Part shown: positions 7,661 to 43,829 of the stretch, one piece after another
Position numbering within the stretch: position 1 is the stretch's first letter
Layout: each line of letters starts with the position of its first letter
Source: Thermaerobacter marianensis DSM 12885
GTDB taxonomy: Bacteria > Bacillota > Sulfobacillia > Thermaerobacterales > Thermaerobacteraceae
DNA: 64,000 nt
Assembly (NCBI RefSeq): GCF_000184705.1
Contig: NC_014831.1
Coordinates: forward strand, 930,001-994,000
Reading direction: 5' to 3'
Translations under genes and position numbers: made by a program
The notes under the pieces: generated by a model
Databases searched by the model: none
What the model saw: only the letters and a program-made list of their open reading frames with translations
Told to the model about the DNA's origin: nothing

Positions 7661-7718
7661 GGGGCGCACGGGCGGCGCGGGGGCGCGGGGGCGGGCCGGG
7701 GTGGGCCGGGCGCGGTGC

Positions 7719-8165
7719 CTACTGCCCGCCGCCCAGCCCGCGGGCGGTGCGCCATGCGGCGAAGACCTGCTGGGTGCCCGGCACGAGCCGGTAACGGTCG
7801 ACCTCCGTCCACGGGACCCACGCCGCCTCCGCGGCATCGTCGCTGGCATGCAGCGTGCCGCCCACCGGGCGGGCGGCGAAGAACAGGATCACGTAGTGGA
7901 AGCGGACCCGCTGTGCCTCGTCCCGGTTGACCGCGTCCTTATACGTAAGGAAGCCCTCCACCTCGACTTCGAGTCCCGTCTCCTCCCGCACCTCGCGGCG
8001 CAGGGCTTCCTCCACCGTCTCGCCGAGTTCCACCGCACCGCCGGGCAGGCCCCACCAGCCGCGGAAGGGTTCGCCGCCCCGCCGCACCAGGACGACCCGC
8101 TCCCCGTCGCTGACCACCGCGTGGCAGGACGGGCGCGGGTGGGTGGGATACTGAAAGGTCGCCAC
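7719..8165 (-). CDS. Nudix hydrolase
   Basis: A 148-residue pyrophosphohydrolase acting on nucleoside-diphosphate-linked substrates. The Nudix box is complete: GAVELGE, then seven residues, REVREETGL, matching Gx5Ex7REUxEExGU. The GTG start at 8165 is supported by AGGAGGTGG just upstream and gives the usual Nudix length; the open frame would otherwise extend 68 residues into non-conserved sequence. On the minus strand a TATGAT -10-like hexamer lies at 8239-8244 with TTCACA at 8260-8265, but the 15-base spacer is short. The gene converges with the inositol monophosphatase gene. Specific substrate unknown. Confidence 0.92.
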   Translation of the reverse strand: MATFQYPTHPRPSCHAVVSDGERVVLVRRGGEPFRGWWGLPGGAVELGETVEEALRREVREETGLEVEVEGFLTYKDAVNRDEAQRVRFHYVILFFAARPVGGTLHASDDAAEAAWVPWTEVDRYRLVPGTQQVFAAWRTARGLGGGQ

Positions 8166-8596
8166 CGGCTCCACCTCCTGCGATCCCCCAGCGACCTCGG
8201 CCCACCGCCCTTCCGGCCGGCCGGACACCGGCCGCTGGATCATAAAGTCTACCACCGCCTGTGAAACCCTGTCACGGGTGGGGACGAACCCCCGCCCATG
8301 GACGGTCCCGCCGGCCGAGCCGGTTTCGCCCAGGGCGGCTATCATGTTGGCGAGAGCGGCTTTTATCACCGTTGGCAGCCCGGGGCGCGGCCCTCCGCCG
8401 TGGCCCGCCAGGCGGACCGCGGTGGGGCGCCCGGACCCCGGGAAGCTCGGCCCACGCCGGCCGGATGCCCGGTCCCTGTGGGAAGGGGTTGACCGCCGTT
8501 GGCCGGCGTCTGGCCCGACCGCCTGCGGTCGGATCGCGGTCCGTGCGGCCGTAGGCGCGATCGTCCTGCAAAGACCACGGCGAGGAGGAGCGGGCA
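8166..8596. other. Intergenic region between divergent Nudix and PlsY-like genes
   Basis: A 430-base gap that probably carries the two divergent promoters. The only AT-richer patch is near 8236-8270, described with the Nudix gene. No RNA or gene recognised. Confidence 0.4.
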
Positions 8597-9166
8597 GTGG
8601 GGTGGATGTGGTGGATCCCGGTCGCAGCCTACCTAGTCGGCGGGATTCTGCCCGGCGAGTACCTGGTGCGGTGGCGACGCGGCGCCTCGCCCCGGGAACT
8701 GGGGGACGAACCCGGCACGGCGGGCACCTGGCGCCAGGCCGGTGCCGCCGCCGGGCTGGCCGTGTTCGCCTTCGACTTCGCCAAGGGGCTCCTGCCCGTC
8801 TGGCTGGCCGACCGCCTGGGGGCCGGCGGGTGGCTGCTGGTGGCGACGGCCGTCGCGCCGGTGGCTGGCCACAACTGGCCGCTGCAGCGGGGCTTCCGTC
8901 CTGGCGGCCGGGGGCTGGCCAGCGCCATCGGCGTCACCGTCTACCTGGCACCCCGGGCCCTGATCCCCGCCCTACTCGTGGGCTGCGTGGTGGCCTTGTG
9001 GCGGCGGCGCACCCCGTGGGTGGGGATCGTGGGGTTTCCCCTGGGGCTGGCCGCCATGCCGCTGGCGGGAACGCCGGGGGAACGGGTCGTGGCCGCCCTG
9101 GCCGCCATGCTAACCGTCGGGCTGCGGTACTTGCAGTGGACGCGCCACCGGGGGCGGTGGATCTAG
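8597..9166 (+). CDS. PlsY-like glycerol-3-phosphate acyltransferase family membrane protein
   Basis: A 189-residue protein with about five hydrophobic segments. It keeps two PlsY motifs: FDFAKGLLPV (DxxKG) and GHNWPLQRGFRPGGRGLASAIG (GH plus glycine-rich loop). The first PlsY motif, normally GSGNPGATN, is replaced by EPGTAGTWRQAG, so it is a divergent member that may use a different acyl donor or substrate. PlsY itself transfers acyl from acyl-phosphate to glycerol-3-phosphate at the start of phospholipid synthesis. GTG 8597 is preceded by GAGGAGGAG with seven-base spacing. Confidence 0.75.
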   Translation: MGWMWWIPVAAYLVGGILPGEYLVRWRRGASPRELGDEPGTAGTWRQAGAAAGLAVFAFDFAKGLLPVWLADRLGAGGWLLVATAVAPVAGHNWPLQRGFRPGGRGLASAIGVTVYLAPRALIPALLVGCVVALWRRRTPWVGIVGFPLGLAAMPLAGTPGERVVAALAAMLTVGLRYLQWTRHRGRWI

Positions 9167-9252
9167 GTGCGGGGGCCGGTCCCGCCCTGCCGTCGCCCCG
9201 GCCCGTGCCTGCCGCATGCCGCCGGGTCAAGGGTTTGCTACGGGTCCGGGGC

Positions 9253-9281
9253 TTGACGATGGAACACCTGTTCTGTAATAT
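9253..9281 (+). promoter_or_regulatory. Sigma-A-type promoter of the repair operon
   Basis: TTGACG (9253-9258), a 17-base spacer and TAATAT (9276-9281). Transcription would start near 9288, about 120 bases upstream of the SbcD/YhaO-like gene. The spacer contains the LexA-type palindrome listed separately. Confidence 0.75.
9262..9273. promoter_or_regulatory. LexA (DinR)-type SOS box
   Basis: GAACACCTGTTC is an exact match to the Bacillota LexA core GAAC-N4-GTTC. It occupies the promoter spacer, so bound LexA would block RNA polymerase. The genes downstream are DNA-break repair genes, which supports the reading. Confidence 0.75.
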
Positions 9282-9408
9282 GTAACCAGCTCCCGTTTTT
9301 CCAGGCGAACCGGACGAACCGGACCCATCGCGACGGTCGCCGTGGCCCGGCCGCGCCGCGTCAACGCTGCGGCAGGGCCGGCTCATGCCCGCCGAGGGGG
9401 GACAAGTT

Positions 9409-10548
9409 TTGTTCCGCATCCTTCACCTGGCCGACCTCCATCTGGGCTGGAAACCGGCCTTCATGCCCCCGGACCGGGCCGTGGAACGCCAGCGCCGGCG
9501 GGACCGCCTGCTGGCCCGGGCCGTGGACTATGCCCTCGATCCGACCAACGGCGTGCGCCTGGTCCTGATCGCGGGCGACCTCTTCGAAACCCACCGGCCC
9601 GACACGGCGCTGGTGGCCGAGGTGGTGGGCCAGCTGCGCCGCCTGGAAAGCGGCGGCGTCCCCGTCGTCACCGTGCCGGGGAACCACGACGAGATCACCT
9701 ACCACGATTCGGTGTACCGGACCCACGGGTCGTCGTGGCCGGGCGTGCTGGTGCAGAATCCGCTGCCCGACCACGTGGTGACGCTGGCGATCGGCGACAC
9801 CCCCGTCCACATCTACAGCCTGGCCTATACCGGCGGCGTGACGCCCGCCGGCGTGCCGCTGCGGGACTTTCCCCGGCGGGACGAACCCGGCCTCCACGTG
9901 GCGGTCTTCCACGGCACCCTGGGCGACTGGGGCGGGGACCGGTGCCTGGCGCTGGACCGCGATGCCCTGGGCCGGGCGGGGTACGACTACGTGGCGCTGG
10001 GGCACATCCACCAGGCGCAGGAGGAGACGCTGGGTCGCACCCGGGTCGCCTACGCCGGGGCGGCGGAAGGGAAGGGGTTCGACGACCCCGGCACCCGAGC
10101 GTGGACCCTGGTCGAGGTGGAGCCCGGCCGGGGCGTGGTGGGATTGCGGCGGGTGCCGGTGGACGTGCAGGTGGTGGATACGGTCACGGTGGACGCAGGT
10201 CGGTTCGCTTCCGCCGAGGAACTGCGGGCTTACCTTGAAGGTGTGGCCCCGCCGGACGCCATCCTCCGGGTGCGCCTGGAGGGAATCCCGGCGTTCTCCG
10301 TGGACCCCGATGCGCTGCAGGTGGAACTGGGCAGCCGGTTCTTCTACGTCGAGGTGGACGACGCCACGGAGCCGGTGACCCGGGAGCAGCTGGCCGCCTG
10401 GGCCACGGAACCCACGATCCTGGGACTGTTCGTCCGGCGCCTGCAAGAGGAGATCGAAGGGGCAGTCGATGCGCGGCAGCGGCGGATCGCCGAGCGAGCC
10501 CTGCGCCTGGGCATCCGGGCGTTGCTACGGGAGGGATCGGGCCGGTGA
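9409..10548 (+). CDS. SbcD/YhaO-like DNA repair exonuclease (metallophosphoesterase)
   Basis: A 379-residue Mre11/SbcD-type nuclease subunit with the calcineurin-like metal motifs in order: ILHLADLHLG, AGDLFE, VPGNHDE, VFHG and GHIHQ. Such subunits pair with an SbcC/Rad50/YhaN ATPase to process DNA ends and hairpins. TTG 9409 was chosen because AGGGGG lies eight bases upstream and it gives the usual N-terminus LFRILHLADLHLG; ATG 9385 is a weaker alternative. The stop overlaps the next start by 4 bases (GTGA), so it is translationally coupled to the ATPase gene. First gene of the predicted SOS-controlled operon with addB and addA. Confidence 0.92.
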   Translation: MFRILHLADLHLGWKPAFMPPDRAVERQRRRDRLLARAVDYALDPTNGVRLVLIAGDLFETHRPDTALVAEVVGQLRRLESGGVPVVTVPGNHDEITYHDSVYRTHGSSWPGVLVQNPLPDHVVTLAIGDTPVHIYSLAYTGGVTPAGVPLRDFPRRDEPGLHVAVFHGTLGDWGGDRCLALDRDALGRAGYDYVALGHIHQAQEETLGRTRVAYAGAAEGKGFDDPGTRAWTLVEVEPGRGVVGLRRVPVDVQVVDTVTVDAGRFASAEELRAYLEGVAPPDAILRVRLEGIPAFSVDPDALQVELGSRFFYVEVDDATEPVTREQLAAWATEPTILGLFVRRLQEEIEGAVDARQRRIAERALRLGIRALLREGSGR

Positions 10549-13500
10549 GGGACGGGGAAGGCGTGGTGGGCCAGCCGGTGACGCAGGCCGGTACCCGGGA
10601 CGGCCGTCCTGTGGAAGCCGGTGCCGCCACGGACGGTGGGGGTACCGGGCCTGTGGCCGGGGGTCCCCGCGTCACATGGCACCGCCTGGTGCTCCGGGGT
10701 TTCGGCCCGTTCCAAGGCACCGTGGCGTTCCGGTTCCCCGAGGGATTGTCCCACTGGGTGGCGCCCAACGAGACGGGCAAGTCCACCTTGGTGGCGGGGT
10801 TGGTGGCCGTGCTCTTCGGCCTTCCCGGAGGGAACGATCCGGTGCGCTTTGGCCAGGCGCGGTACCGGCACTGGGGGGGAGCGCCCCGGTTCGAAGGGGA
10901 ACTGGAGTTCACCGGGACCGACGGCCGTGCTTACCGGATCGAGCGGGACTTCGCCACCCACAAGGTTCGGCTGCTGCGCCTGGACCCCCAGGGGCCCATC
11001 CAGGTGTGGGCCGGCACCCACAATCCCGGCAGCAGCCGCTCGACGCCCGGGTACGAAGACGCCATCCGCCACCTGGTGGGGGTGGGTTCCCGCACCCTGA
11101 TGCTGGAGACGTTCCTCCTGCAGCAGCCGGTGGCGGTTTCGGAAGCCGGTGACCGGAAGCCCGGCCTGCCGGCCGAGGTCCAGCAGATGGTGGCGGGAGC
11201 CGGCGGCCGGTCGCCGGCTCAGGCGGCCGAATTCTTGACCGAGGCGATCAAGCGGCTGACCCGCCAGACCCGGGACCTGGGCGTCTCCGGCTCGAACCAG
11301 CGTCACGACCGGGCCATCGAGCAGCTGGACCAAAAGATCCAGGAACTCGAAGCCCGCATCGCCCGGGAGCGGGAGGCGGCCGACAACCTGGAACTGGTGC
11401 GCCGCCAGCTGGCCGAGATCACCAAGGGGAGGAGCGAAGCCGACCGGCAGCTGCGGCTCGCCCGGCAGCGCCGGGAGGCGTGGGTCGACTGGCGCCGCCG
11501 GGTCGAGCGGTACCTGGACCGGGCCCGCCAGCGCGCCAGCATGGAGCAGGCCGCCCAGCGGGCCCAGCGCCTCCGGCTGGAAATGGACCGTCTAGACCAA
11601 GAGGAAGAGCGGGAATGGCCGGGTTGGGCTGCCCTGGCCGGTGAGAACGGGGAAGACCCGGGGGCTGCCCTCCAGCGGTTGCTGGAACTCGAGCAGGCCG
11701 CCGCGGCCCGGAAGGAACAGCGGGAAGCCGCCCGTCGAAAGCAGCGACAGGCGACCGCCCGGTCGCTGCTGGCCGTATGGTTCCGGTACCGGTTTCTCGC
11801 CCAGGCCGCCGGCGCGCTGGACCGCCTCAGCGAGCGGGTTCCCCGGCTGGCCACCGCCACGCCCGAGGAACTGGAACGGCTCCGGGACGCGCCCCGGCGG
11901 GAGGCGGAGCTGGCCCGCCAGGTGGCCCTGCTGGAAGGTGAGCTTCGCGCCCGGGAGGCGGCGTTGCGGGACTGGCAGGCAGAGGCCGAGGCCCTGGACG
12001 CAGCCTACGCGGCCGTCCGCCACTGGACGGCCGAGACGGCGGCGGCCGCCGCCGAGCTGGCGGACCTGCGGGAGCGGGCAGAGCGGCAGCAAGAGGAGGC
12101 CCGGCGCCGGGAGGAGGAGAGCCGGGAGCGGCGGAAGGCTGCCCGGCGCCTGGCCGTGATGGTGGCACTGCTCGCGGGGGTTGCCGTGGCGGCCGCCGGC
12201 CGGATCCTCGATCTAACCCCCTGGCTACTGCCCCTGGTGGCGGGGCTGTCCACCTTCGCCGCAGGATGGGTGGCCTGGCGCTGGGCGGGCGGTCCAGCTC
12301 AGACGGGGCCGGCCGGTGAGGACGGCGACCTCCGTGGCCGGATCCAGCAGCTCGAGGCTCGTCTCGGCCCTCTGGCCGGCGAGCCCCCGTCCCGCTTGCG
12401 GGACCTGGAGCGGCAGTTCCGGGAGTGGCGGGCCCTCCGCGACGGCCTGGAACAGCGGCGCCAGCAACTGGACCGTCAGGGGCCGGAAGAGGTCCGGACC
12501 CGGCTGGATGCGGCCCGTGCCCAGGTCCAGGCCCTTCGGCAGTGGCTTGAGCCCTTCCTGGCAGGGGCCCGGGATGCGGTCCGGGTCGCGGCCTGGTGGG
12601 AGGCGGTGAGCCGCCTGCGCCGCCGGGTCGAGGATGAGCGTGCCCAGCTGGCCCGCGAGGTGTGGGGCGCCAGACCGGACGCCGTGCCGGATCTTCCGGC
12701 CGGTGACGGTGAAGGGTGGTGGTGGGAGCGGGCCCGCCGGCTTACCGGCGATGCCGCCCTCGCAGACCTCGGCGGTCCACCGGATTCGCGGACCGTCTCG
12801 GAATTCGCGGCCTGGCTGGAGAGCGGGGAGGCTTCCGTCTGGGAGAAACCCATTGAGGAAGCGGCCCGCTGGGCGGAGCTGGCCCAACGGGCGGCGGAGT
12901 GGTGCCAGGCCCTGGAAGGCAGCTGGATCCCCGGTGACGATCCCGACCCGGCGGCGGTTCCCGCTTGGCCGCCCACCTTCTACGATCACTTGGTCCACCT
13001 GCAAGCGGCATCGGAACGGGAGGCCGCTGCGTCCGCCCAAGATGGGGAGGCGGCAGAAGCCCAGCTCGATACCCTCCAGCGGGAGCAGTCGGCCTTGCGG
13101 GAGCGGTGGCGGGAGTTGCTGGAACCGGCCGGTGGGGACCCCGCCCGGGCCCGGGAGCGGTGGCAGGCTTTCGGCGCCCACCGGCAACGGCGCAGGGAGT
13201 TGGAGAAGCAGCTGGAAGGCGTTCTGACGGCCTGGGGAGTGGCTGACGCCGATGCCCTGGCGATCCGGGTGCAGCAGGCCGCCGACGCTGCCACCGTCGA
13301 CCTGAAGGCGATCCACGACCTTGCCGAGCGCTTCCCCGAATTGCCGGCCGACGACCTGGAGCCGGCCCGGGCGGTCGAGGCCCTTGCGCAACTGGACGTG
13401 GAGATCGAGGCGCTCGAAACCCAGCTGAACCGGCTTGAGGAGGAGTTACGGGAGCTGTCGCGACGGGAGGCCGGATACCTGCAGCGGGAGCCCGTCAACG

Positions 13501-14111
13501 TCGCTCAGGCGGAGCTGGAGCTGCGCGCCTTGCGGGCGGAACGGCAAGGCCTCCAGGACGAGCTCGACGCCCTGGTCCTGGCGTACCGGCACCTCAAGGA
13601 GGCCCAGGTGGAATTCCAAGCCACTTACCGCCAGCGCCTGGAGGAGGCCGCCAGCCGCTACTTCGCCCGCTTGACGGGCCGTCCCGGACGGCGGGTGGCC
13701 CTTGACGACGGGTTCCACATCACCGTGCGGGAGCCCGACGGGACGCCGGTGGTGCTGGAACAGCTGAGCCAGGGCACGCGGGATCAACTGGTCTGGGCCT
13801 TGCGGGTCGCCGTGGCCGACCTGCTCGCCGGGGACGTCAACGTGCCCTTCGTGCTGGACGACCCCTTCGCCCACTGGGACGATGGGCGACTGGAGGAAGG
13901 TCGCCAGATCGTCACGGCCCTGGCCCGCGACCGGCAGGTCATCGTGCTGTCCCACCGGCCCGCTCTGCGGAGCTGGGGCGAGCCCGTGGCCATCGACGGT
14001 GTCGCCGCGGCCGGTTCGTCCGCGGGTGGGATCGCCGAGGCGCCACCCGGCGGCGAGGCGGAGGCGGCGGCCGCCCTGGCACCCGGCCGCGAGGAAGGGG
14101 AGCGGCCATGA
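10545..14111 (+). CDS. YhaN/SbcC-like AAA-family ATPase
   Basis: A 1188-residue SMC-like ATPase. Walker A APNETGKST is at residues 73-81 and, near the C-terminus, LSQGTRDQLVWAL (signature) and VPFVLDDPF (Walker B) complete the split ABC-type head. Long coiled coils rich in Arg, Glu and Gln lie between. Instead of the CxxC zinc hook of SbcC/Rad50 the middle has a hydrophobic hairpin (about residues 537-580), as in B. subtilis YhaN, so membrane attachment or hydrophobic dimerisation is possible. It begins at GTG 10545 overlapping the nuclease stop, and its own stop overlaps addB by 4 bases (ATGA). Confidence 0.9.
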   Translation: MRDGEGVVGQPVTQAGTRDGRPVEAGAATDGGGTGPVAGGPRVTWHRLVLRGFGPFQGTVAFRFPEGLSHWVAPNETGKSTLVAGLVAVLFGLPGGNDPVRFGQARYRHWGGAPRFEGELEFTGTDGRAYRIERDFATHKVRLLRLDPQGPIQVWAGTHNPGSSRSTPGYEDAIRHLVGVGSRTLMLETFLLQQPVAVSEAGDRKPGLPAEVQQMVAGAGGRSPAQAAEFLTEAIKRLTRQTRDLGVSGSNQRHDRAIEQLDQKIQELEARIAREREAADNLELVRRQLAEITKGRSEADRQLRLARQRREAWVDWRRRVERYLDRARQRASMEQAAQRAQRLRLEMDRLDQEEEREWPGWAALAGENGEDPGAALQRLLELEQAAAARKEQREAARRKQRQATARSLLAVWFRYRFLAQAAGALDRLSERVPRLATATPEELERLRDAPRREAELARQVALLEGELRAREAALRDWQAEAEALDAAYAAVRHWTAETAAAAAELADLRERAERQQEEARRREEESRERRKAARRLAVMVALLAGVAVAAAGRILDLTPWLLPLVAGLSTFAAGWVAWRWAGGPAQTGPAGEDGDLRGRIQQLEARLGPLAGEPPSRLRDLERQFREWRALRDGLEQRRQQLDRQGPEEVRTRLDAARAQVQALRQWLEPFLAGARDAVRVAAWWEAVSRLRRRVEDERAQLAREVWGARPDAVPDLPAGDGEGWWWERARRLTGDAALADLGGPPDSRTVSEFAAWLESGEASVWEKPIEEAARWAELAQRAAEWCQALEGSWIPGDDPDPAAVPAWPPTFYDHLVHLQAASEREAAASAQDGEAAEAQLDTLQREQSALRERWRELLEPAGGDPARARERWQAFGAHRQRRRELEKQLEGVLTAWGVADADALAIRVQQAADAATVDLKAIHDLAERFPELPADDLEPARAVEALAQLDVEIEALETQLNRLEEELRELSRREAGYLQREPVNVAQAELELRALRAERQGLQDELDALVLAYRHLKEAQVEFQATYRQRLEEAASRYFARLTGRPGRRVALDDGFHITVREPDGTPVVLEQLSQGTRDQLVWALRVAVADLLAGDVNVPFVLDDPFAHWDDGRLEEGRQIVTALARDRQVIVLSHRPALRSWGEPVAIDGVAAAGSSAGGIAEAPPGGEAEAAAALAPGREEGERP

Positions 14112-32966: not shown

Positions 32967-34183
32967 GGGCGACCGTGAAGGCGGCGTCTACTTCCGGGCG
33001 CGCGGGGTACCGGCGGGGGCCGGTGCCCCGCGCGCTGGCATGGGCGGCCCTGGCCGCCGGGCTGGCGCTGGCCGGCCTGGCGCTGCAGCGGCAGGCTCCC
33101 GCGGTGGCCGCCACGGCGCAGGCCGTGGCGGCCACCGCGGAGCTGCTGCGGGCCTGGCACGAGGGCTCGCCGGCGGCCGCCGGGGCCTGGGTGGCCCCGG
33201 CGGCCGCCGCGCCGGGGGGCGCCTGGCTGGCGGGCCTGGCCCGCGACCTTCCGGACCGGGTCCCGCCCGGCCGCGTCCCGCCCAGCCCGCCGGCGGCGGG
33301 CGGCCGGGCGGCAGCGGGTCCGGCGGGCGAGACGCCGGCAGGGGCCGCCCCTGCCCCGGCGCCGGGGACCGTCGGTCCGTGGTCGCCGTGGTCAGGGGCC
33401 GCGGGTCCGCCGCCTCCTGCGGACCCGGCGCCGGGGACCGTGGATCCGGCGGCGGCCGCCGCGGACCCGGCGGCCCTCCTCGCCGCCCCCCTCACGAGCT
33501 ACGCTATCGGCAGCGTCCGGCCCGATGCCGCCGGCCGGCTCCACGTGACGGCGGTGACCGAAGTGGCCATACCCGGGGCCGGCTACGCCGGCCGGTTCGT
33601 CCGGGAACTGGTCTGGCGGCCGGGGCCGGGGGCGCCCCGGCTGGTGGCGGCGTCGTCACGGCAGGTGCTGGAGGTGGCCGTGCGGGGCGACGCCCTGGCC
33701 TGGAGGCGCTCGGCCGGGCCGTGGCAGCAAGGCGTCGGGCTGGCGGACCTTCCCCTGCGGGCGCAGCCGCCGGGCGGGCCGCCCGGGGTCGACGTGGACG
33801 TCTCCCGTGATGGCTTTGGCCCCATCGCCCTGGCCGGGCCGCGGGGGGTACTTCTGACGACCCGCGGCGCCCGGCCCCTGGTGGCCCTCTGGTCCTGGCG
33901 CCCGAATGGCGCCAGCGCGCCTGCCGGTTCCTCCGCCGGCCCGGCGGCCCGCCCGGCGACCGGCACCGGCTCGACCGGCGGCCCCCCGACCGCATCCCGG
34001 ATCGTGGTCCTGGACGTCCTCTACCGTGCCCAGGCGCTGGGGTGGCGGGTGGACCCTGACGGCCGGTACGCCGTGCTGACCGTCCAGGCCGAGGACGGCT
34101 CGCGGGTAGCGGTGACGTACGACCTGGACCGCGGCGGTCCCGTGTCCACCCGGCCCGCCGCCGGCGGTGGTCGAACCACCTAA
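32963..34183 (+). CDS. Hypothetical membrane-anchored or secreted protein
   Basis: A 406-residue protein starting at a GTG that overlaps the selD stop (GTGA), so it is likely co-translated with selD; GTG 32975 is an alternative. A positively charged N-terminus is followed by a hydrophobic segment at about residues 24-42, then a Pro/Gly/Ala-rich linker to about residue 170. The C-terminal part has alternating hydrophobic strands (VTAVTEVAI, FVRELVWRPG, SRIVVLDVLYRAQALGW) suggesting a beta-rich extracytoplasmic domain. I do not recognise the family. Coupling to selD may be accidental. Confidence 0.6.
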   Translation: MRATVKAASTSGRAGYRRGPVPRALAWAALAAGLALAGLALQRQAPAVAATAQAVAATAELLRAWHEGSPAAAGAWVAPAAAAPGGAWLAGLARDLPDRVPPGRVPPSPPAAGGRAAAGPAGETPAGAAPAPAPGTVGPWSPWSGAAGPPPPADPAPGTVDPAAAAADPAALLAAPLTSYAIGSVRPDAAGRLHVTAVTEVAIPGAGYAGRFVRELVWRPGPGAPRLVAASSRQVLEVAVRGDALAWRRSAGPWQQGVGLADLPLRAQPPGGPPGVDVDVSRDGFGPIALAGPRGVLLTTRGARPLVALWSWRPNGASAPAGSSAGPAARPATGTGSTGGPPTASRIVVLDVLYRAQALGWRVDPDGRYAVLTVQAEDGSRVAVTYDLDRGGPVSTRPAAGGGRTT

Positions 34184-34487
34184 GGGCTCGAACCACCGCG
34201 GGCCAGGCGCCCGGCCTGCCTCGGGGCTGCCCGAGCCGGCACGCCCCGACCTCCTGGCGCGAGCCGCCCCGGCAACCGCCGTACCGGACGCCGCCTCCGC
34301 CCGGTCTCCCCACCCCAGTCCGCCGGGTTCCCCGCGTCGACCCCCCACCGCCCGGAATCCCCTCGCCTTGGGCGCATGCCTGCGGTCCCCCCTTCGGCGG
34401 ACTTTCGTAGGATGGGATGACATCACCCGCGGCCGCGGGATTCGCCTGCCGCGCCGCCCGCCGGCCCGGGGTGCAGGGGAGAGGCCG
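34184..34487. other. Intergenic region
   Basis: This 304-base gap begins with a hairpin (GCGGTGGT near 34162 with ACCACCGC near 34191) that may end the selD transcript. No other feature recognised. Confidence 0.4.
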
Positions 34488-35156
34488 ATGCTGAAGGTTC
34501 TGATCGCCACGGGGAGGCCGCTGATCCGGGAGGGGCTGCAGCGGGTGCTGGAGGGGGCTTCCGGACTGCAGGTGGTGGGGCATGCCGCCGCGGCGGACCC
34601 GTTGCTGGAGCGGGTGCGGCAGCTGGCGCCCGACGTGGTGCTCCTGGACCTGGGCCTGGCGGAGGACGACGCCCGGGACCTGGTGGGCCGCCTGGGCCGG
34701 GCGCCCAGCGCGCCGGTGGTCGTCGGCATCACCGACCGGGCCGACCCGCAGGCCCTGCTGGGGCTCGTCCAGGCGGGGCTCGGTGGGTATCTGCTGGCCA
34801 ACCGGGAGGCCGCGGGGCTGGCCGAGGCGATCCGCGCCTGTACGGCGGGGATCTTCGTGATCGACGCGGAGATCATGTCGGAGCTGGCCCACGACTCCCC
34901 GCTCTACCGGTACGTGCCGGCGCCGGAGGAAGTGGAGCGGGCGCGGCTGCTCAGCCAGCGGGAGCTGGAGGTGCTGAGCCGCATCGCCCGAGGGAAGTCC
35001 ACGGCCCAGGTGGCCCGGGAGCTGTACATCAGCCCCAAGACGGTGCGCAACCACCTGAGCCACATCATGCAGAAGCTGGGCGTGCGGGACCGCACCCAGG
35101 CGGTGCTCTTCGCCCTGCGGGTGGGGTTGATCCGGCGCCACGACCTGATGGGGTAG
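34488..35156 (+). CDS. LuxR/NarL-type response regulator with an atypical receiver
   Basis: A 222-residue protein with an N-terminal receiver domain and a C-terminal LuxR HTH (LLSQRELEVLSRIARGKST, then VARELYISPKTVRNHLSHIMQKLGV). The phosphoacceptor D54 is present (VVLLDLGL), but the acidic pair that binds Mg2+ is missing: residues 7-9 are A-T-G where NarL members have A-D-D. The conserved Thr/Ser and Lys are also not evident. It may therefore work without phosphorylation. No histidine kinase gene is adjacent. ATG 34488 follows CAGGGGAGAGG. It precedes imuB in the same direction. Confidence 0.9.
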   Translation: MLKVLIATGRPLIREGLQRVLEGASGLQVVGHAAAADPLLERVRQLAPDVVLLDLGLAEDDARDLVGRLGRAPSAPVVVGITDRADPQALLGLVQAGLGGYLLANREAAGLAEAIRACTAGIFVIDAEIMSELAHDSPLYRYVPAPEEVERARLLSQRELEVLSRIARGKSTAQVARELYISPKTVRNHLSHIMQKLGVRDRTQAVLFALRVGLIRRHDLMG

Positions 35157-35265
35157 GGGCGCCGGTTCCTCCGCAGGGGCACATGGGACCCGCGATCCGG
35201 AGGGGCCGGGCCGTGCCCGGCCTTCCGATATCCCAAAAAATTGCTGTTCAGGATGCCCATTCCTC

Positions 35266-35294
35266 TTGACGCCCTTCCGGCCCCCCTCTACAAT
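35266..35294 (+). promoter_or_regulatory. Near-consensus sigma-A promoter of the imuB operon
   Basis: TTGACG (35266-35271), a 17-base spacer and TACAAT (35289-35294). Transcription is expected near 35301, only about 4 bases before ATG 35305. Confidence 0.75.
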
Positions 35295-35304
35295 GGGTCT
35301 CACC

Positions 35305-36636
35305 ATGGGGAACAGATGTTCGGTATCGAGGCCGCCCCTGGCCTTCGTACGGCTTGAGGGCGCGTGGGTGACGGCCGCCGGCGTGGGCGATCGGCCGGCG
35401 GTGGTGGCCGACGGCCCGGTGGTGGCCGACGTGTCCCCGGCCGCCCGGGCAGCCGGGCTGCGCCCGGGCATGCGGGTGCAGGGGGCGCGGCGGCTGCTTC
35501 CCGGCCTGGCGGTGGTGCCGCGGGATGAGATCGACCCCCTGGCGGCCCTCGAGCCCCTGTACGAAGCGCTGCTGGGCGTCTCGCCGCGGGTCGAACCGGC
35601 GGTGGACCGCATGGCGGCCTTCTGCGAGCTGGACGCTCGCCAGACCGTGGACGGCGTGGTGGCCGTCCTGCAGGCAGCGGGCCTTGCGCGTTACGGCGAC
35701 CGGCTGGTGCTGGGAATCGGTCAGGGCCGTCTGGTCGCGCGTATGGCGGCCCGGGTGGCGGCGCGGTCGCGGGCGGCTGCTGCCCGGGGGCGGGGCGGCG
35801 CCGGGCGCGGTGGCACCGGGCGAAGCGCCGCCGGACCGGAGACGGCGGGGCGGCGTTCCGGCAGGGGTGCCGATGCGGAGACGGACGCCGGAAGGTCCCT
35901 GGCGGTGGTGAGCTGCCGGGTTCCTCCCGGCCAGGAGGCCGCCTTCCTGGCGCCGATGCCCGTGGCGGCCCTGCAGGAGGAGGTGGCGCCGGCGGCACGC
36001 CGCCAGCTGCAGCGCCTGGGGCTGATGACCCTGGGCGACGTGGCCGCGGCGCCGCGCCAGGTGGTCGCCCGGGCCGTGGGGGATCTGGCCCCCCTCCTCC
36101 AGGCCTGGTGCCGCGGGGACGACCGCCGTCCCCTGGTGCCGGGCTTCCCGCCGCCGGGCGTCACCGCCGTCCTGGCGGCACCGCCGGAGCTGGCCGACGA
36201 CCTGCGGGCGGGCTGGTGGTCGGCGCAGCTGCCCCGCCTGGCCCAGGAGGTGGCGGCCCGCCTGGCCGCTGCGGGGCGGGCCGGACGGCTGGCGGTCCTG
36301 CAAGGAGAGCGGGCCCGGGCCAGCCGGCACCTGCCCGCGGCCGTGGCCGGCGCGGATGTACTCACCCGCGCGGCCCTGGACCTGTACCGCCGCCTCTTGC
36401 GGGACGAACCGGCCCCGGCCCGCCTAGCGCTGACGGTGACCGCCCTGGAGCCGGCCGTCCGCCAGCTCTCCCTGGCGGACCCGGTCCAGGAAGACCGGCC
36501 GGTTCTGCTGGACGAGCTGGCGCGCCGCTATCCGGGGCGGATCTTCTGGGGCCGGGAGCGCCCCGTCTCGCGGCGGGAGCGCCAGCTCGCCTACTGGGAT
36601 CCCTGGCGTGGGGCGCCTGGCGGGGCGGGGCCTTGA
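35305..36636 (+). CDS. ImuB-like Y-family DNA polymerase homologue, predicted inactive
   Basis: A 443-residue relative of DinB/ImuB. The Y-family framework is visible (PPLAFVRLEG at the N-terminus, GLRPGMRVQGARRLLPGLAVVP, VSPRVEPAVD), but the first catalytic Asp of the DxDxFFA motif is absent and the SxDE motif is replaced by DRM. ImuB proteins act as non-catalytic adaptors that bring DnaE2 to stalled forks. QLSLAD at residues 387-392 resembles a beta-clamp-binding motif. ATG 35305 was chosen because it is the first in-frame start after the predicted transcription start; it would be nearly leaderless. A Gly/Arg/Ala-rich insert lies at about residues 155-195. Confidence 0.85.
   Translation: MGNRCSVSRPPLAFVRLEGAWVTAAGVGDRPAVVADGPVVADVSPAARAAGLRPGMRVQGARRLLPGLAVVPRDEIDPLAALEPLYEALLGVSPRVEPAVDRMAAFCELDARQTVDGVVAVLQAAGLARYGDRLVLGIGQGRLVARMAARVAARSRAAAARGRGGAGRGGTGRSAAGPETAGRRSGRGADAETDAGRSLAVVSCRVPPGQEAAFLAPMPVAALQEEVAPAARRQLQRLGLMTLGDVAAAPRQVVARAVGDLAPLLQAWCRGDDRRPLVPGFPPPGVTAVLAAPPELADDLRAGWWSAQLPRLAQEVAARLAAAGRAGRLAVLQGERARASRHLPAAVAGADVLTRAALDLYRRLLRDEPAPARLALTVTALEPAVRQLSLADPVQEDRPVLLDELARRYPGRIFWGRERPVSRRERQLAYWDPWRGAPGGAGP
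35310..35321. promoter_or_regulatory. LexA (DinR)-type SOS box
   Basis: GAACAGATGTTC is an exact GAAC-N4-GTTC palindrome just downstream of the predicted transcription start. Both boxes in the window share the pattern GAACA-N2-TGTTC. Confidence 0.75.
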
Positions 36637-36885
36637 TGAGGCCGGGCCCCCATCCCACGAGGCCGGGCGTCCCCTCCCGCGGACCGACGGCCCATCCTGC
36701 GGGCTGGCCGCCCTGTCCCGCGAACCGTCGCTCCGTCCGCGAACCGTCGCCCCGGGCCGCGGGCCGGCTGCACCATCCCGCGGGCCGGCCCGCGGCCCGG
36801 GCGGCCTGTTCTGCCGGCCGGTGTAGCCGTACCGGTGCAGGCCCGTGCCCGGGCGCATGCACCCCGAGGGCGGAGGTGGGGAGCC

Positions 36886-37128
36886 ATGGCGCTGGTCGGC
36901 AAGCCGGTGGCGGTCGAAACGGATGCCCGTGGCCGGCCCGTCCGGTTCTTCTGGCACCGCTGGCACCGGGTGGCCGGCATCGTCGACGAGTGGCGGGAAG
37001 CGGGGGCGTGGTGGGATGGGGAGGGGGAGCGGCAAGTGGTGCGGGTGCTGACGGAAGGGGGCGGGGTGTTCGAGCTGGAGCGGGTGGCGGGCAGTTCCCA
37101 GTGGGTGCTTTACAAGGTGTACGACTGA
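36886..37128 (+). CDS. DUF6504-family small protein
   Basis: An 80-residue protein with RPVRFFWHRWHRVAGIVDEWR, AWWDGEGERQVVRV and the ending WVLYKVYD, the pattern of DUF6504 proteins. These are often encoded next to imuB and dnaE2, as here, but their role is not established. ATG 36886 follows GGAGGTGG. It sits 249 bases after imuB and 216 before dnaE2. A part in the translesion complex is inferred from position only. Confidence 0.8.
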   Translation: MALVGKPVAVETDARGRPVRFFWHRWHRVAGIVDEWREAGAWWDGEGERQVVRVLTEGGGVFELERVAGSSQWVLYKVYD

Positions 37129-37344
37129 CGGCCCGTGCGGCGGGCGGGGGCCGGGACGGCCGTGCATCACGCCGGACAAGGCGCGCCTGACGGCCTGCAC
37201 GGCGGGTGGGCCCCGCAAGGCCGGCCGGCAGCACGCCGGGGCGAGGTGCACCCCGCGGACCGTGGGGCGGTCGGGTCCGGGGCGGCCGGCAGCACGCCGG
37301 GGGCAGGCGCGCCGTGCCGGTGCGGCGGCGAGGAGGGCGGCGGC

Positions 37345-40300
37345 ATGTTCGTCCACCTGCATTGCCATTCCGCCTATTCCTTTCTCGACGGGGCCAGCCC
37401 CGTCCAGGCGCTGGTGGAGCGGGCTGCCGGCCTGGGCATGCCCGCCCTGGCCCTGACGGACCACGACAACGTGGCGGGGGCCGTGGAATTCGACCGCGCG
37501 GCCCGGGCGGCGGGCATCAAGCCCATCCAGGGAGTGGAGCTCACCCTGCTCCTGGACGAACCGGCGGGTTCCTCCGGTGGGGGCACCTCCGAGCGCCCGT
37601 TGACGGCGCCCCGCGGCGGGGAGCTGGCCACCGCCCACCTGGTCCTGCTGGCCACGGGCCCGGCGGGATACGCCCGCCTGTGCCGGCTGCTGACCCGGGC
37701 CCACCTGGAACAACCCCGGGGCAGGCCGGCCCTGCCCTGGTCCGTGCTGCTGGAAGAAGTGGCACCGGGCGGGGAGCCCCTCCCCGGCCACGGGCTGATC
37801 GCCCTCTCCGGTTGCCGCCGGGGCCCCGTGCTGCAGGCCCTGCTACAAGGTGACCGCGCCACGGCCCTGGAGCGGGCCCGCCGGCTGCGGGACACCTTCG
37901 GCCGGGAGCACTTCTTCCTGGAGCTCCAAGGCGGGTGGCTGCCCGGCAATCGCGCCCTCAACCGCACCCTGGCGGACCTGGCGGAACACCTGGGGGTCGG
38001 CGTGGTGGCCACCAACGACGTCCACTACGCCACCCGCGACCGCTTTGCCGTCCACGACCTGCTGGCCTGCGTCCGCCTGGGCATCCCGGTGGACGAACCC
38101 CATCCCCAGCGGCACCTGAACGCCGAGAACGACCTCAAGTCGCCCCGGGCCATGGCGCAGATGTTTGCCGGCTACCCCCAGGCCCTCAAGGCCACCCTGG
38201 CCATCGCCGAGCGCTGCCAGCCGGTGCTGCCGGCGGGCGCCGTGCCCCGGCCGGCCTTCCCCTTGCCGCCCGGCATCCGCGCCGAGGCTTACCTGCGGGA
38301 GCAGGTTGAGCGGGGGGCCCTGTGGCGCTACGGCCGCATCACTCCCCGCATCCGGCAGCGGCTGGAACACGAGCTCCGTATCATTGAGAAGCTCCAGCTG
38401 GCCGACTACTTCCTGCTGGTCTGGGACGTGGCCCGCTACGCCCGCCAGCAGGGGATCCGCTGCGCCGGCCGTGGGTCGGCGGCCGACTCGGCGGTGGCCT
38501 ACTGCCTGGGCATCACCGACGTGGACGCCATCGAGCGGGGCCTGCTCTTCGAGCGCTTCCTCAGCCTGGAGCGGGCGGAGCAGCCGGACATCGACATCGA
38601 CTTCGACGCCCGCTACCGCGACCAGGTGGCCGACTACGTCGAGCAGCGCTACGGCCCGGAGCACGTGGCCACCGTCTGCACCTACCAGACCTACCACGCC
38701 CGCGGCGCCTTGCGGGACTTCGGCAAGGCGCTGGGATTCCCCACGGCGGTCATCGACCGCATCGCCAAGCGGGTGCCGTACGCCCTGTCCCGGCACCTGG
38801 GCCGCGCCTTGGAGGAGGTCCCCGAACTGCGCGACCTGGACCTGCCCCGGGAGCGGTTCCGCCGGCTGGTGGACCTCTGCGAGGCGGCGGCGGGGCTGCC
38901 GCGGCACATGGGCACCCACCTGGGCGGCCTGGTGATCAGCCGCCGGCCGCTGGTGGAGCTGTCGCCGCTGCAGCGGTCCGCCAAGGGGCGCCGGATCCTC
39001 CAGTTCGACAAGCGGGGCGTGGAGGAACTGGGTCTGGTCAAGCTGGACCTCCTGCCCCTGCGCACCCTGGGGGCGGTGGAGGAGGCGGTGCGGGTCATCC
39101 GCCGCCGCGACCCTGCCTTCGACTACGACCGCATCCCCCTCGACGACCGGGCCACCTACGAGCTGCTCCGCACCGGCGAGACGGTGGGGGCCTTCCAGCT
39201 GGAATCGCCCGCCCAGCGGGCCCTGCAGCCGCGGCTCAAGCCCGAGAACCTGGAAGACGTGGTGGCCAGCGTGGCCATCATCCGGCCGGGGCCCATCAAG
39301 GGGGACATGGTGGAACCCTTCCTGGCCCGGCGGCGGGGCCGGGAACCCGTTACCTACCTGCATCCCAAGCTGGAGCCCATCCTGCGCAAGACCTGGGGCG
39401 TGGTGCTCTTCCAGGAGCAGGTGATCGAGATCGCCACCGCCATCGCCGGCTTCACGCCGGGGGAGGCCGACCGCCTGCGCCGGGTGATGACCCACGCCCG
39501 CTCGCCGGAGGACATGGAGGACATCGGCCGGCATTTCCTGCGCCGCGCCCGGGAACAAGGCGTGGACGAGGCGGTGGCCCAGGCCATCTTCCGCATGATC
39601 CAGGGCTACGCCAGCTACGGCTTCTGCGAGGCCCACGCCGCCGCCTTCGGTGTCACCGCCTACAAGACGGCCTACCTGCTCGCCCACTACCCGGCCGAGT
39701 GGTATGCCGCCCTGCTCAGCCTCCAGCCCATGGGCTACTACCCGCCCAACACCCTGTGCGTCGAGGCGGCGCGGCGGGGCATCCGCATCCTGCCTCTGGA
39801 CATCAACGCCAGCCAGGTGGGCTTTGCCGCCACCCCCGGGGCCATCCGCATCGGGCTGCGGGCGGTCAAGGGGCTGGGGGAGGAACCGGCCGCCGCCATC
39901 GTGGCGGAGCGGGAGCGGGGCGGCCCTTTCCGCCACTTCATGGACTTCCTGCTGCGGATGGCAGGGAGCAGCGCGGGCGGCGGAGACTGGGGCGAGGCAG
40001 CGGATACGACATCCGGCGAAGCGGCGGGCAGGCCGGCGGGCGGAGGGCCCGGCACCAAGCCGGATGGGGAGCCGAGCGCACCCAGCGGGGCGCCTGCCGC
40101 GCAGGCCGGCGGCAAGACGGGCCGGCCAGACGGCAGGGGGCACCGGCGGGGGAGCGGGTCGCCCCGCGGGCCGGTCCTCGACCGGGACCAGGTGGCCGCC
40201 CTGATCCGGGCTGGAGCCTTCGACGGCCTGCACCCCAACCGCCGCGCCCTGCTGTGGGGGCTCGACGAGGCCCTGGCGGCCGCCCGGAGTGCCGCCGGGG

Positions 40301-41139
40301 GCGAGCTGGCCGGGGCCCTGGCCGCGGCCTGGTCGCCGCCCGCGGTGGACGACTTCCCCGAGCTCGAGAAGTGGGCCATGGAACGGGAGGTGTTGGGGAT
40401 CGACGTCCACCGCCGGCACCTGCTGGCCATGTTGCGGGAGGTCCTGGATGCCCGGGGCTACCGGTCCGCCGCCGCCATCCGCCGCCTGCCGGCGGGCGCC
40501 TCCGTGCGGGCGGCGGGGATCCCTGTCCGGCCCCACCGCCCGCCCACCCGCAGCGGCCGCATCATCGTGTTCCTGACCCTGGAAGACGAGACCGGCCTGG
40601 TGGACGTGACCGTCTTCGAGGAGGTATATCAGCGTTACGGGCGGTGGATCTTCACCGACCCGCCGGTGCCCCTCGTGGTAGAGGGGGTCTTGCAGGACCG
40701 GGACGGCGCCCGGGCGCTTTTAGCCCGCCGGGTGATCCCCCTGGCGGCGGCGCTGGTGGAAGGCGGTGGGCACCCGCCGGCGCCACCGCGGGATGGCGAC
40801 CGCCGTCCACCGGCGTACCCGCGGCAAGGCGACCTCCGCCCGCCGGCGCACCTGCGGGACGGCGACCAGCGCCCGCCGGCGCACCCGCCGGAGGGCGGTC
40901 GCAGGCTCGCCGGGGAATCCCGGGCGGTCGCCCCGTCCCGGCCTGCGCGATCCCGGCTCGCGGCAGGCGTTCCCCTGTCGGCCACCGGCCGGGAAGCGGT
41001 GCCGCCCACGGCCCAGCGACCGGAACCCGCCACGCCCCCGGTGGCGGAACCGGGAACGGCGCGGGCCCTGGATGTCCGCCATACCCGAAAGGGTGAGCCG
41101 GTCCTGCCGGGGAAGGGGGTGCACCGGTGGAGCGGCTGA
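37345..41139 (+). CDS. dnaE2: Error-prone DNA polymerase III alpha subunit (DnaE2-like)
   Basis: A 1264-residue C-family polymerase. The N-terminal PHP domain starts [17 protein letters not shown], a form typical of DnaE2 rather than DnaE1, and continues ALALTDHDN. The catalytic aspartates lie in PDIDIDFD (residues 414-421). [13 protein letters not shown] and [10 protein letters not shown]-type OB-fold features ([11 protein letters not shown]) follow. DnaE2 copies damaged DNA together with ImuB, which precedes it. Usual length is about 1050-1080; the excess is a Gly/Ser/Pro insert near residues 873-945 and a C-terminal tail with 11-residue repeats. ATG 37345 follows GAGGAGGGC. The end overlaps the DUF393 gene by 13 bases. 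Confidence 0.92.
40774..40905 (+). repeat. Four 33-bp in-frame tandem repeats in dnaE2
   Basis: Units at 40774, 40807, 40840 and 40873 each encode 11 residues of the form PPAxxRxGDxR. They lie after the OB-fold, in the disordered C-terminal tail. Confidence 0.85.
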
Positions 41140-41651
41140 CGGTCTACTACGACGGCTGGTGTCCCTGGTGCGTCCGGGCGGCCCGGTGGTGCCGGCGCTT
41201 GGACTGGCTGGGCCGGCTCGACTTGCAGTCCTTTCGCCCCGGAGCGGAAGAACCGGCCGGCACCGCCCCGCCCCTCAGCCGGGAGCGGGCGGCCCAAGCG
41301 GAAGCGGAGCTCCTGGCCCGGGCCAGCCCGTCGGGCCGGTGGTACGCGGGGTTTGGTGCGATCCTCGCCATCGCCCAGCGCCTGCCGCTGCTCTGGCCCG
41401 TGGTGCCGGTGCTGGCCGTCCTCGAGGGCGTCGCGGCGGGTCCCGCGCTGTACCGCGCCATCGCCCGCCGGCGGCCGGTGATCCTTCCCATCCCCGGAGC
41501 GTGCCCGTTACCGCACCGGCGGGAGCGCGAAGGGTGGGCCGGCCGCCCTACCGGCATCCCACTGCCGGACGCCGCCGCAACGGCCGGGGGCGAAGGCGAC
41601 GGCCGGGACCGGAGGGGCGGTGGGCGGCCCACGGGTCCTAGACCCGGATAA
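41127..41651 (+). CDS. DUF393 (DCC) thiol-disulfide oxidoreductase-like protein
   Basis: A 174-residue protein starting [19 protein letters not shown], the CxxC-containing signature of the DUF393/DCC family, with a thioredoxin-like fold predicted. A hydrophobic segment near residues 85-105 (LPLLWPVVPVLAVLEG) and LYRAIARRR also fit. Substrate and role are not known. GTG 41127 lies inside the end of dnaE2 and is preceded by GGGGAAGGGGG, so translation may be coupled. The C-terminal 40 residues are Gly/Arg-rich and unassigned. Confidence 0.85.
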   Translation: MERLTVYYDGWCPWCVRAARWCRRLDWLGRLDLQSFRPGAEEPAGTAPPLSRERAAQAEAELLARASPSGRWYAGFGAILAIAQRLPLLWPVVPVLAVLEGVAAGPALYRAIARRRPVILPIPGACPLPHRREREGWAGRPTGIPLPDAAATAGGEGDGRDRRGGGRPTGPRPG

Positions 41652-41842
41652 GGGTTGGGAGCCGGCGGGAGATGCCGGCCTGACGGTCGATGCCGGCGCG
41701 GCCCCCCGGCGTGGACGCGGCCCCCGGCGAGGGCCGCCCCCGGTGACGACCCGGACAAGGACCTTTCCCCTCCTCTGGCGAAGTGGGCACTCGCCTGCAC
41801 GGCTTCCCGCCGCCGGAGAGGCCGGGAGGTTGCGGGAACCCC

Positions 41843-42304
41843 ATGTTTCACGTGGTCCTGGTGGCGCCCGAGATCGCACCCAACACGGGGAACGTCGCCC
41901 GTACCTGTGCCGTGACGGGGGCTCGCCTGCACCTGGTCCGGCCCCTGGGCTTCCGGCTGAGCGACCGCCTGCTCAAGCGGGCGGGAATGGACTACTGGAA
42001 TCACGTGGAATGGCACGTGCACGACACCTGGGATGAACTGCTGGCGGCCCTGCCCGAGGCGCGGTTCTGCTACCTGGAGCCCGACGGCAGCCAGCGGTAC
42101 ACCGACGTGACCTTCCGGCCCGGCGACGCCCTGGTATTCGGAAGCGAGTCCCGGGGCCTGCCGCCGGAGTTCCTCCGGCAGCGGCCCGGGCCCACCTTGC
42201 GGGTGCCCATGCGCCCGGGCCTCCGCTCGCTGAACCTGGCCAGCACCGTGGCCCTGGTGCTCTATGAGGCGTACCGGCAGCACGGGTTCCCGGGCATGAC
42301 TTGA
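41843..42304 (+). CDS. trmL: tRNA (cytidine/uridine-34-2'-O)-methyltransferase
   Basis: A 153-residue SPOUT-class methyltransferase that methylates the ribose of the wobble base in tRNA-Leu. Knot motifs are intact: IAPNTGNVARTCAVTG, FGSESRGLPPEFL and MRPGLRSLNLASTVALVLYEA. Length is typical. ATG 41843 has a weak GGGAGG site 14 bases away, but the N-terminus MFHVVLVAPEI fits the family exactly. About 190 bases separate it from the DUF393 gene. Confidence 0.95.
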   Translation: MFHVVLVAPEIAPNTGNVARTCAVTGARLHLVRPLGFRLSDRLLKRAGMDYWNHVEWHVHDTWDELLAALPEARFCYLEPDGSQRYTDVTFRPGDALVFGSESRGLPPEFLRQRPGPTLRVPMRPGLRSLNLASTVALVLYEAYRQHGFPGMT

Positions 42305-42356
42305 AGAGGGGGCCGGACGGCGAGACGACGGCGAAAGGCGAAAGGAGCGGGCGACC

Positions 42357-43829
42357 ATGCGGTCCCTGCGGGTAGCCGCCGTACCCATGCGGATCGAGCC
42401 GGTGCCGCACCTGGAGGCGGCCCGGGAGAGGCTGCTGGCCGCCGTGCTGGAAGGCTACCGGCTGCTGGCGGATCCCGCGTTGCCCGCAGCGGTCCTCCCG
42501 GGACGGCCCACGGAAGGCGGGGCCGGCTCCCCGGCGGCGGCCGTTGCCCGCGACCCGTCGCGCGGAGAGGTTCCCCCGGCCACCCCGTCGCCGGTGCACC
42601 CGCTGGAGCCCGCCCGGCCTGCGGGGGAAGCGGGGGAGGGCGCCGATGCTGCCGCCCCGGGAGGGCGAACGTCCCATCCTGCCGGCGGGCATGCCGGCCG
42701 GCACGTCGGGCGCCGGGCGGACCCTTCTTCCCGCCGGCCGGATCCTGCTTCCGCCCCGGACCCCGGCAGGCGGCGGGCCGGGGTGCCGCCCACTGCAGTC
42801 GCCCCGAGCGGTCGGGGCCGCCGGAAGCCGCCGTGGCCGGTGGCCCGACGGGCCGCCGGGCTGGTGGTGCTCCCTGCCCTGGCCGGTCTGTTGCCGCTGT
42901 CGGCGCTGGCCGGCGAGCCGCCCCGGTGGGACGGCCGGCTGGTGTCGCTGGCCCGGCGTTACGGCGGGGCGGCGGCGGAAGCATGGGAGGAATGGGCCGC
43001 CGGCGCCGCGCGGACCCTGGGGATCTACCTGTGTGCGGGAACGGTGGTCCTGCCGCGGGACGGCGGCATCGAGCACGTGGCGCTCTGCTTCGGGCCCGAC
43101 GGCCGGCTGCTGGCCCGCCAGCCCCAGCTCCACCGCCTGCCCGGCGACGCCGCCGTGGAGCTCGTCCCCGGCGACGAGTGGCATCCCTTCACCGTGGAAG
43201 GCTGGCCGGCCGCCCTGGTGGTGGGCGGGGACGGCTGGGTGCCCGAGGTGGGCCGGTGGACGAGCTTGGAGGGTGTGCGTCTGATCCTCCACCCGGCCCA
43301 CCGGCTGGATCCGGTGTCGCCCTGGGACGTGGTCGCGGGTCCCTGGCAGGTCGTCCAGCAGACCCAGATCTACTGGGTCCACGCCGCGCCCGGCGGCGAG
43401 GTGGGCGGGAAGAACCTGGCCCCCAGGGCGGCCGTCTTTGCCCCTTGCGAGATCACCCCCGGCGGGCGGGGCTGGCTGGTCCGCGAAGACGGCGGCCTCC
43501 CTGCTGCCGCCTTGCTGGAGCGGCCGGCCCTTGAGTCCATCCGGCAGGCGTATCCCCTGGACCGTTACCTCAACCCGGGCCTGTACCTGCGAGAACTTCT
43601 TCCGGCCTACCGGGCCGTGGCCACCGCCCCGCCGGAGCCCGTTCCGGCCCCGCCGGTTGCCCTGCCCGAACCGGCGGAGGCGGCCGCGGCCGCAAACCCC
43701 CGGCGCCGCTGGCGCCGCCGGGGGACCAAGGGATCGGTAGGTTCCGGCGGGACCGGTACCGCCGGTACGGCCGGTACCGCCGGTGCCGCTGGCGCCGCCG
43801 GTGCCGCCGGCGCCGCCGAGCCGGACTGA
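42357..43829 (+). CDS. Nitrilase-fold pseudoenzyme
   Basis: A 490-residue protein colinear with the neighbouring carbon-nitrogen hydrolase from about residue 165 on. Aligned to it, the catalytic Glu is A174, the Lys is Q257 and the Cys is G290, so the Glu-Lys-Cys triad is wholly lost. The shared framework includes CAGTVVLPRDGGIEHVALCF, FGPDGRLLAR and a matching end (LRELLPAYR). A Pro/Ala/Arg-rich insert of about 110 residues (roughly 48-160) separates the first strand from the rest. The C-terminus carries seven Gly-Thr/Ala-Ala triplets. ATG 42357 follows AAAGGAG. It likely partners or regulates the active paralogue 51 bases downstream. Confidence 0.75.
   Translation: MRSLRVAAVPMRIEPVPHLEAARERLLAAVLEGYRLLADPALPAAVLPGRPTEGGAGSPAAAVARDPSRGEVPPATPSPVHPLEPARPAGEAGEGADAAAPGGRTSHPAGGHAGRHVGRRADPSSRRPDPASAPDPGRRRAGVPPTAVAPSGRGRRKPPWPVARRAAGLVVLPALAGLLPLSALAGEPPRWDGRLVSLARRYGGAAAEAWEEWAAGAARTLGIYLCAGTVVLPRDGGIEHVALCFGPDGRLLARQPQLHRLPGDAAVELVPGDEWHPFTVEGWPAALVVGGDGWVPEVGRWTSLEGVRLILHPAHRLDPVSPWDVVAGPWQVVQQTQIYWVHAAPGGEVGGKNLAPRAAVFAPCEITPGGRGWLVREDGGLPAAALLERPALESIRQAYPLDRYLNPGLYLRELLPAYRAVATAPPEPVPAPPVALPEPAEAAAAANPRRRWRRRGTKGSVGSGGTGTAGTAGTAGAAGAAGAAGAAEPD
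43755..43817 (+). repeat. Seven 9-bp in-frame tandem repeats
   Basis: Units of the form GGTACCGCC/GGTGCCGCC encode repeated Gly-(Thr/Ala)-Ala at the C-terminus of the nitrilase-fold pseudoenzyme. Such tracts can change length by slippage. Confidence 0.8.

Follow-up and report, generated by a model that had tools for sequence, protein, structure and literature searches.

A probable LexA-repressed operon for a split-ImuB mutasome in Thermaerobacter marianensis, with a predicted operator in the first codons

How would a bacterium without ImuA assemble and control an ImuB-DnaE2 mutasome? A three-gene locus of Thermaerobacter marianensis DSM 12885 raises this question. It lies in the window, which is the whole 64,000-nucleotide stretch that we analyzed (NC_014831.1, positions 930,001 to 994,000). 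A sequence-only reading had annotated the locus as imuB, DUF6504, and dnaE2 behind a promoter and a LexA box. In our analysis, it is very probably a LexA-repressed operon encoding a mutasome in which ImuB is split (Table 1).

Table 1. Features of the locus in window coordinates
Feature	Coordinates	Strand	Basis
-35 element TTGACG	35266..35271	+	TTGAC retained in 5/5 family genomes
-10 element TACAAT, spacer 17 nt	35289..35294	+	TACAAT or TAGAAT in 5/5 family genomes
imuY/iPolY ("imuB" of the sequence-only reading), predicted inactive Y-family adaptor without ImuB-C domain, 443 aa	35305..36636	+	
Predicted LexA operator GAACAGATGTTC, covering imuY codons 2-6	35310..35321	+	GAAC/GTTC kept in 5/5 family genomes
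QLSLA (residues 387-391), candidate beta-clamp motif immediately ahead of the C-tail	36463..36477	+	function inferred
C-tail of ImuY (residues 398-416), a helix followed by YPGRIFWG that may be a RecA-NT-like motif	36496..36552	+	model and class pattern
DUF6504 protein of 80 aa, an ImuB-C domain encoded on its own	36886..37128	+	PF20114, profile match to ImuB C-terminus, all-beta model
dnaE2, error-prone C-family polymerase, PDIDIDF and PHP domain, low-complexity C-terminal tail, 1264 aa	37345..41139	+	

The first protein matches the Pfam families IMS (34.5 bits) and IMS_C (25.8 bits), and the best match of its structural model among Y-family polymerases has Z 21.7 over 314 residues (rmsd 5.2). 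When aligned to the genome's own DinB, it has R for D, M for D, and A for E at the three catalytic positions, so the claimed loss of the acidic residues holds. The protein is a dead Y-family adaptor, but the ImuB-C domain is missing from it and is encoded separately; we use the name ImuY (iPolY). Q387 of its candidate clamp motif is one of 8 invariant columns in an 18-row alignment, and the motif's position corresponds to that of QLPLW in mycobacterial ImuB, as given in passages of PMC11791113. In the model, a predicted tail helix (residues 398 to 408) stands at the expected RecA-NT place. However, a RecA-NT profile test was not significant for the window's tail, whose score was reached by 1310 of 5000 shuffles; the motif filter caught only 7 of 30 RecA rows. 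Comparing the tails with RecA by hhalign gave 0.1%, likewise without significance. By eye, the Y-family tails of L179-L181, L188, L189, L191, and L194, among others, have no RecA-NT-like stretch and keep a C-terminal SRRExxLQxWDxWR-like motif, which looks widely shared in the class among the rows listed.

Reading of the sequence refined the start of the second gene to the ATG at 36886, after ggcggaggtggggag. Its product matches DUF6504 (PF20114) with 32.2 bits, above the cutoff of 24.2, and its model is confident and all-beta. A class-wide DUF6504 alignment matched five alphaproteobacterial ImuB C-termini with 94.1% probability (E 1.3e-7), right up to the end of the protein, and that of Manganitrophus with 85.6%. 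Conversely, PF20114 found the 507-residue ImuB of Methylovirgula (29.9 bits, residues 431 to 504), which is encoded in an imuA-imuB-dnaE2 operon and bears the RefSeq name "DUF6504 family protein." Scores were below the cutoff for Shinella and Rhizobium ImuB (18.4 and 18.3) and lower for Sulfitobacter (12.7), and there was no match to Eleftheria or Streptomyces ImuB. Likewise, the DUF6504 profile did not match the ImuB C-termini of three betaproteobacteria (0.2%), Streptomyces (1.1%), or Thermomicrobium (1.7%). A fold search with the DUF6504 model returned no PDB or viral match at an E value of 0.001 or better, which excludes nothing, and a PDB sequence search gave chance-level matches only. 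By these sequence comparisons, DUF6504 is the C-terminal beta domain of ImuB made as a separate protein. ImuB appears to be split in two because DUF6504 is ImuB-C and the protein called ImuB lacks that domain. We found no literature on DUF6504 by name. In a class where the domain is nearly universal, a function would thereby be assigned to it, that of a mutasome's standalone ImuB-C.

This identification bears on a proposal of the sequence-only reading, in which DUF6504 would be a novel accessory subunit taking over the structural place of ImuA. DUF6504 does stand in the operon, and the claim that no ImuA is present holds for the whole genome: its RecA-family proteins are one RecA and two weaker matches, RadA and AtpA. 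However, ImuA is a RecA homologue, the ImuB-C domain and ImuA co-occur in Methylovirgula, and DUF6504 matches the C-terminus of canonical ImuB, which makes it the missing half of ImuB. The replacement of ImuA by DUF6504 is largely refuted and very improbable. A second RecA-like protein acting as a hidden ImuA was also ruled out, the weak matches being RadA and AtpA. In the absence of ImuA, its place as partner is likely taken by RecA itself. Passages of PMC6511836 and PMC12926913 draw the same inference, and passages of PMC8072749 describe direct RecA participation in Deinococcus as unknown.

The third protein matches PHP, DNA_pol3_alpha, the finger domain, and HHH_6 in Pfam, and the start of its gene was refined by sequence reading to the ATG at 37345, after gaggaggg. 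Both DUF6504 and a DnaE2-like polymerase are present downstream of the first gene, as had been read. There is one other DnaE-type match in the genome. In a tree made by a quick method without bootstrap, in which the two DnaE1 outgroup rows failed to group together and the papers' DnaE2X reference sequences were absent, DnaE2 joins rows of the class and of Alicyclobacillus in a clade of 27 rows (SH-aLRT 100), and ten canonical DnaE2 proteins stand on a separate side (99). The last 13 nt of dnaE2 are shared with a gene for a DCC1-like thiol-disulfide oxidoreductase (window 41127-41651). In G001 and G002, dnaE2 is also followed by a relative, which was not found in the G003 stretch.

With a dead Y-family protein, and with a long low-complexity insert and tail in DnaE2, the cassette could be a decayed or silent remnant. 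We regard this as hardly credible, because the polymerase aspartates and motifs of DnaE2 are intact, its core is 88-91% identical among four genus genomes, and the first gene is free of internal stops in those four genomes. Furthermore, over codons 7 to 40, the window and G003 differ at codon positions 1, 2, and 3 by 1, 1, and 8 changes. The cassette is real and well conserved, and it is probably functional.

We extended the analysis to the class, in which 125 of 154 genomes have PF20114 matches. Sixty class stretches were picked around such matches, with L119 and L193 looking like the same sequence counted twice. A Y-family protein, DUF6504, and DnaE2 occur together in 50 of them. DnaE2 is missing from three, including L200, where the Y-family protein has the catalytic acids of an active enzyme. 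DUF6504 stands alone in seven (L151, L155, L160, L167, L174, L176, and L183). All three genes are present in 14 of 17 stretches around first-gene matches and in 9 of 10 Alicyclobacillus, Limnochordia, and Bacillota loci; in the tenth, only DUF6504 went undetected. These many orthologues are on offer for solving the structure of a split ImuY-ImuB-C-DnaE2-RecA complex. Two loci are unusual. In L202 (G044, 6279-10653), about 3.3 kb interrupts the first gene and dnaE2 is spread over two frames, possibly through an insertion or an assembly fault. On a Rubrobacter tropicus plasmid (L112, 4534-8339), a DUF6504-bearing protein directly precedes DnaE2, with a divergent lexA and no adjoining Y-family gene.

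There is also an orphan second ImuB-C gene (G000:C1:58837-59052; L001, L027), which scores 54.5 bits, above the operon copy. It adjoins a prophage at about 29 to 55 kb (L254, L255) with terminase, portal, capsid, tape measure, holin, and endolysin genes. We found no LexA box near this own-genome orphan and no attachment repeats of the prophage beside it. The orphan as a general phage trait is unsupported: by eye, no phage run was seen beside the six class orphans, out of seven, whose neighbors we inspected. Among viral contigs, an alignment query found three loci and a single-protein query found none. A 198-kb IMG/VR viral contig carries a standalone ImuB-C (L251, 7992-8237), the neighbors of which we recognized by eye as SRAP-like peptidase, uracil-DNA-glycosylase-like, and sliding-clamp-like proteins.

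What might control the cassette? The promoter described earlier, TTGACG-17-TACAAT, is present ahead of the three genes (35266-35294). It is the sole sigma-70-like site within 33000-43000 (mean in shuffles, 0.2; sd, 0.4), and no terminator-like sites were found in the same 10-kb region. Against a tight operon, the gaps between the genes are long (249 and 216 nt). The LexA box is a perfect match and lies inside the first codons, as claimed. Its center differs among five family genomes (AGAT, ACAC, ACAC, ACAT, and ATAC), with GAAC and GTTC constant. GAACN4GTTC occurs three times in the window (0.30 expected) and at 29 places in the genome, versus 13 for the reversed pattern; therefore, only some of the sites can be real. 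In 71 loci, DUF6504 occurs together with a Y-family N-terminal piece; the region from -250 to +60 of the first gene has an exact box in 40 of them and, if one mismatch is allowed, a box in 64, against a background of 0.02 and 0.14 per such stretch, respectively. Across 65 class loci (the window and 64 others), 46 have a promoter by the rule used and a box, and 19 failed the rule or lack a box. The box appears to be located at the transcription start class-wide.

The sequence-only reading had made its case depend on a LexA homologue, and the genome encodes one (101 bits). It has Ala-Gly, Ser, and Lys, which we take to be the expected self-cleavage residues. The lexA gene is about 347 kb from the cassette. 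Its upstream region has two boxes with one mismatch each, and nearby there is a perfect box between the -35 and -10 elements of a divergent gene. No box within one mismatch was found in the roughly 990 bases upstream of recA. With a genomic LexA and a class-conserved box beside the imuY promoter, the claimed SOS-type control of the cassette is well supported as a prediction from sequence. Elsewhere in the window, GAACACCTGTTC (9262-9273) lies inside the 17-nt spacer of a TTGACG/TAATAT promoter. The genes behind it (9385-14111) presumably encode an SbcD-like exonuclease and an SbcC/YhaN-like ATPase, and this is likely to be a second SOS operon.

The start codon was placed with the same layout in view. 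An in-frame ATG follows the last base of the -10 element by 11 nt. With the transcript start placed 7 nt beyond the -10 element, the ATG is about 3 to 4 nt further on, in agreement with the distance of about 4 bases that had been proposed. The TTG at 35266 was ruled out as a start codon, since it belongs to the -35 element and must lie outside the transcript. A strict layout of -35, -10, and ATG within 5 to 10 nt is rare in this genome, because it occurs four times versus none in the control. Promoter, ATG, and box are shared by the three other genus genomes searched and by one sister-genus genome, and the ATG is directly upstream of the box in all five. In the class majority, translation starts downstream of the box.

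This difference from the class majority leaves room for another account, in which the box at 35310 is not under LexA control or translation begins further in and the upstream ATG is unused. About half of the 29 genomic GAACN4GTTC places are expected anyway, and codon 12 is an in-frame ATG in both G001 and G002. However, the window has no in-frame ATG, GTG, or TTG between the box and the first strand, and G003, with one ATG at codon 7, has none of these start codons at the class start position. Also, the promoter-to-box spacing is near-constant at 14 to 15 nt in the five family genomes despite the varying center, and the box begins 3 to 17 nt after the -10 element (observed range, 6 to 15) in 44 of the 46 class loci with a recognized promoter and box. 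We consider this account unlikely and favor a LexA-controlled box with translation from the upstream ATG.

How might the operator have come to lie in codons? G009 has tataatgggcgctaccGAAC where the window has tacaatgggtctcaccatgggGAAC, a difference that looks like an inserted ATGGG. In several rows of the structural comparison, residue 1 of Dpo4 is paired with residue 10 of the ImuY model, so the residues encoded by the operator seem to be an additional tip at the N-terminus of ImuY. One tentative possibility is that, in the genus and the sister genome, a class-wide operator was absorbed into coding sequence through an ATGGG that arose just upstream. The operator would then be both a LexA site and codons 2 to 6 of a leaderless mRNA, and a peptide of 8 to 9 residues would have been added before the Y-family fold. 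If so, mutasome output would be under two damage- and stress-linked switches, LexA cleavage and leaderless-mRNA initiation. The layout with the operator in codons lends itself to testing, cleanly and at a gene for mutagenesis, both occlusion by LexA and leaderless translation. This overlap of promoter, operator, and start codon is the only part of the cassette for which the literature searched gave no published precedent, and it looks new. The literature on leaderless mRNA, LexA, SOS boxes, and start codons includes passages on the start of M. tuberculosis lexA.

Taken as a mechanism, LexA on the box at the transcription start would block the promoter. DNA damage would activate RecA, LexA would cleave itself, and the near-leaderless mRNA would be made. 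ImuY and ImuB-C would jointly do the work of the single ImuB found elsewhere, with RecA substituting for ImuA.

The sequence-only reading held that the arrangement deserves description. It has already been published, in passages of PMC3765255, PMC6511836, PMC8072749, and PMC12926913; the ImuY/iPolY-ImuB-C-DnaE2 cassette is a described system and is common in the class. From these passages, ImuB-C has been in print since 2013 (PMC3765255), the Kyrpidia tusciae iPolY-ImuB-C-DnaE2 operon since 2019 (PMC6511836), and the DnaE2X class since 2026 (PMC12926913). A 2021 review covers SOS mutagenesis in Deinococcus, where, in the passages seen, imuY and dnaE2 mutants have lost or reduced UV mutagenesis (PMC8072749). 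We found no literature on Thermaerobacter and an error-prone polymerase.

The window shares with the canonical ImuA-ImuB-DnaE2 systems of Mycobacterium, Caulobacter, and Pseudomonas a dead Y-family adaptor, an ImuB-C domain, and DnaE2 under LexA, which is predicted for the window. Unlike them, it has no ImuA, its ImuB-C is a separate gene that is not fused to the Y-family domain, and its DnaE2 is outside the canonical clade. By published description, the Kyrpidia tusciae operon and the DnaE2X group are like the window in gene content and in lacking ImuA; the window's DnaE2 is in a clade with Alicyclobacillus rows, and its RecA-NT motif is weak. Another of the closest known systems, in which mutagenesis has been shown genetically, shares an inactive Y-family protein, a standalone ImuB-C of about 80 residues, DnaE2, SOS control (predicted in the window), and the lack of ImuA. 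In that system the operon begins with lexA, whereas in T. marianensis lexA is far from the cassette, and the window differs further in having its predicted operator within the coding start of imuY.
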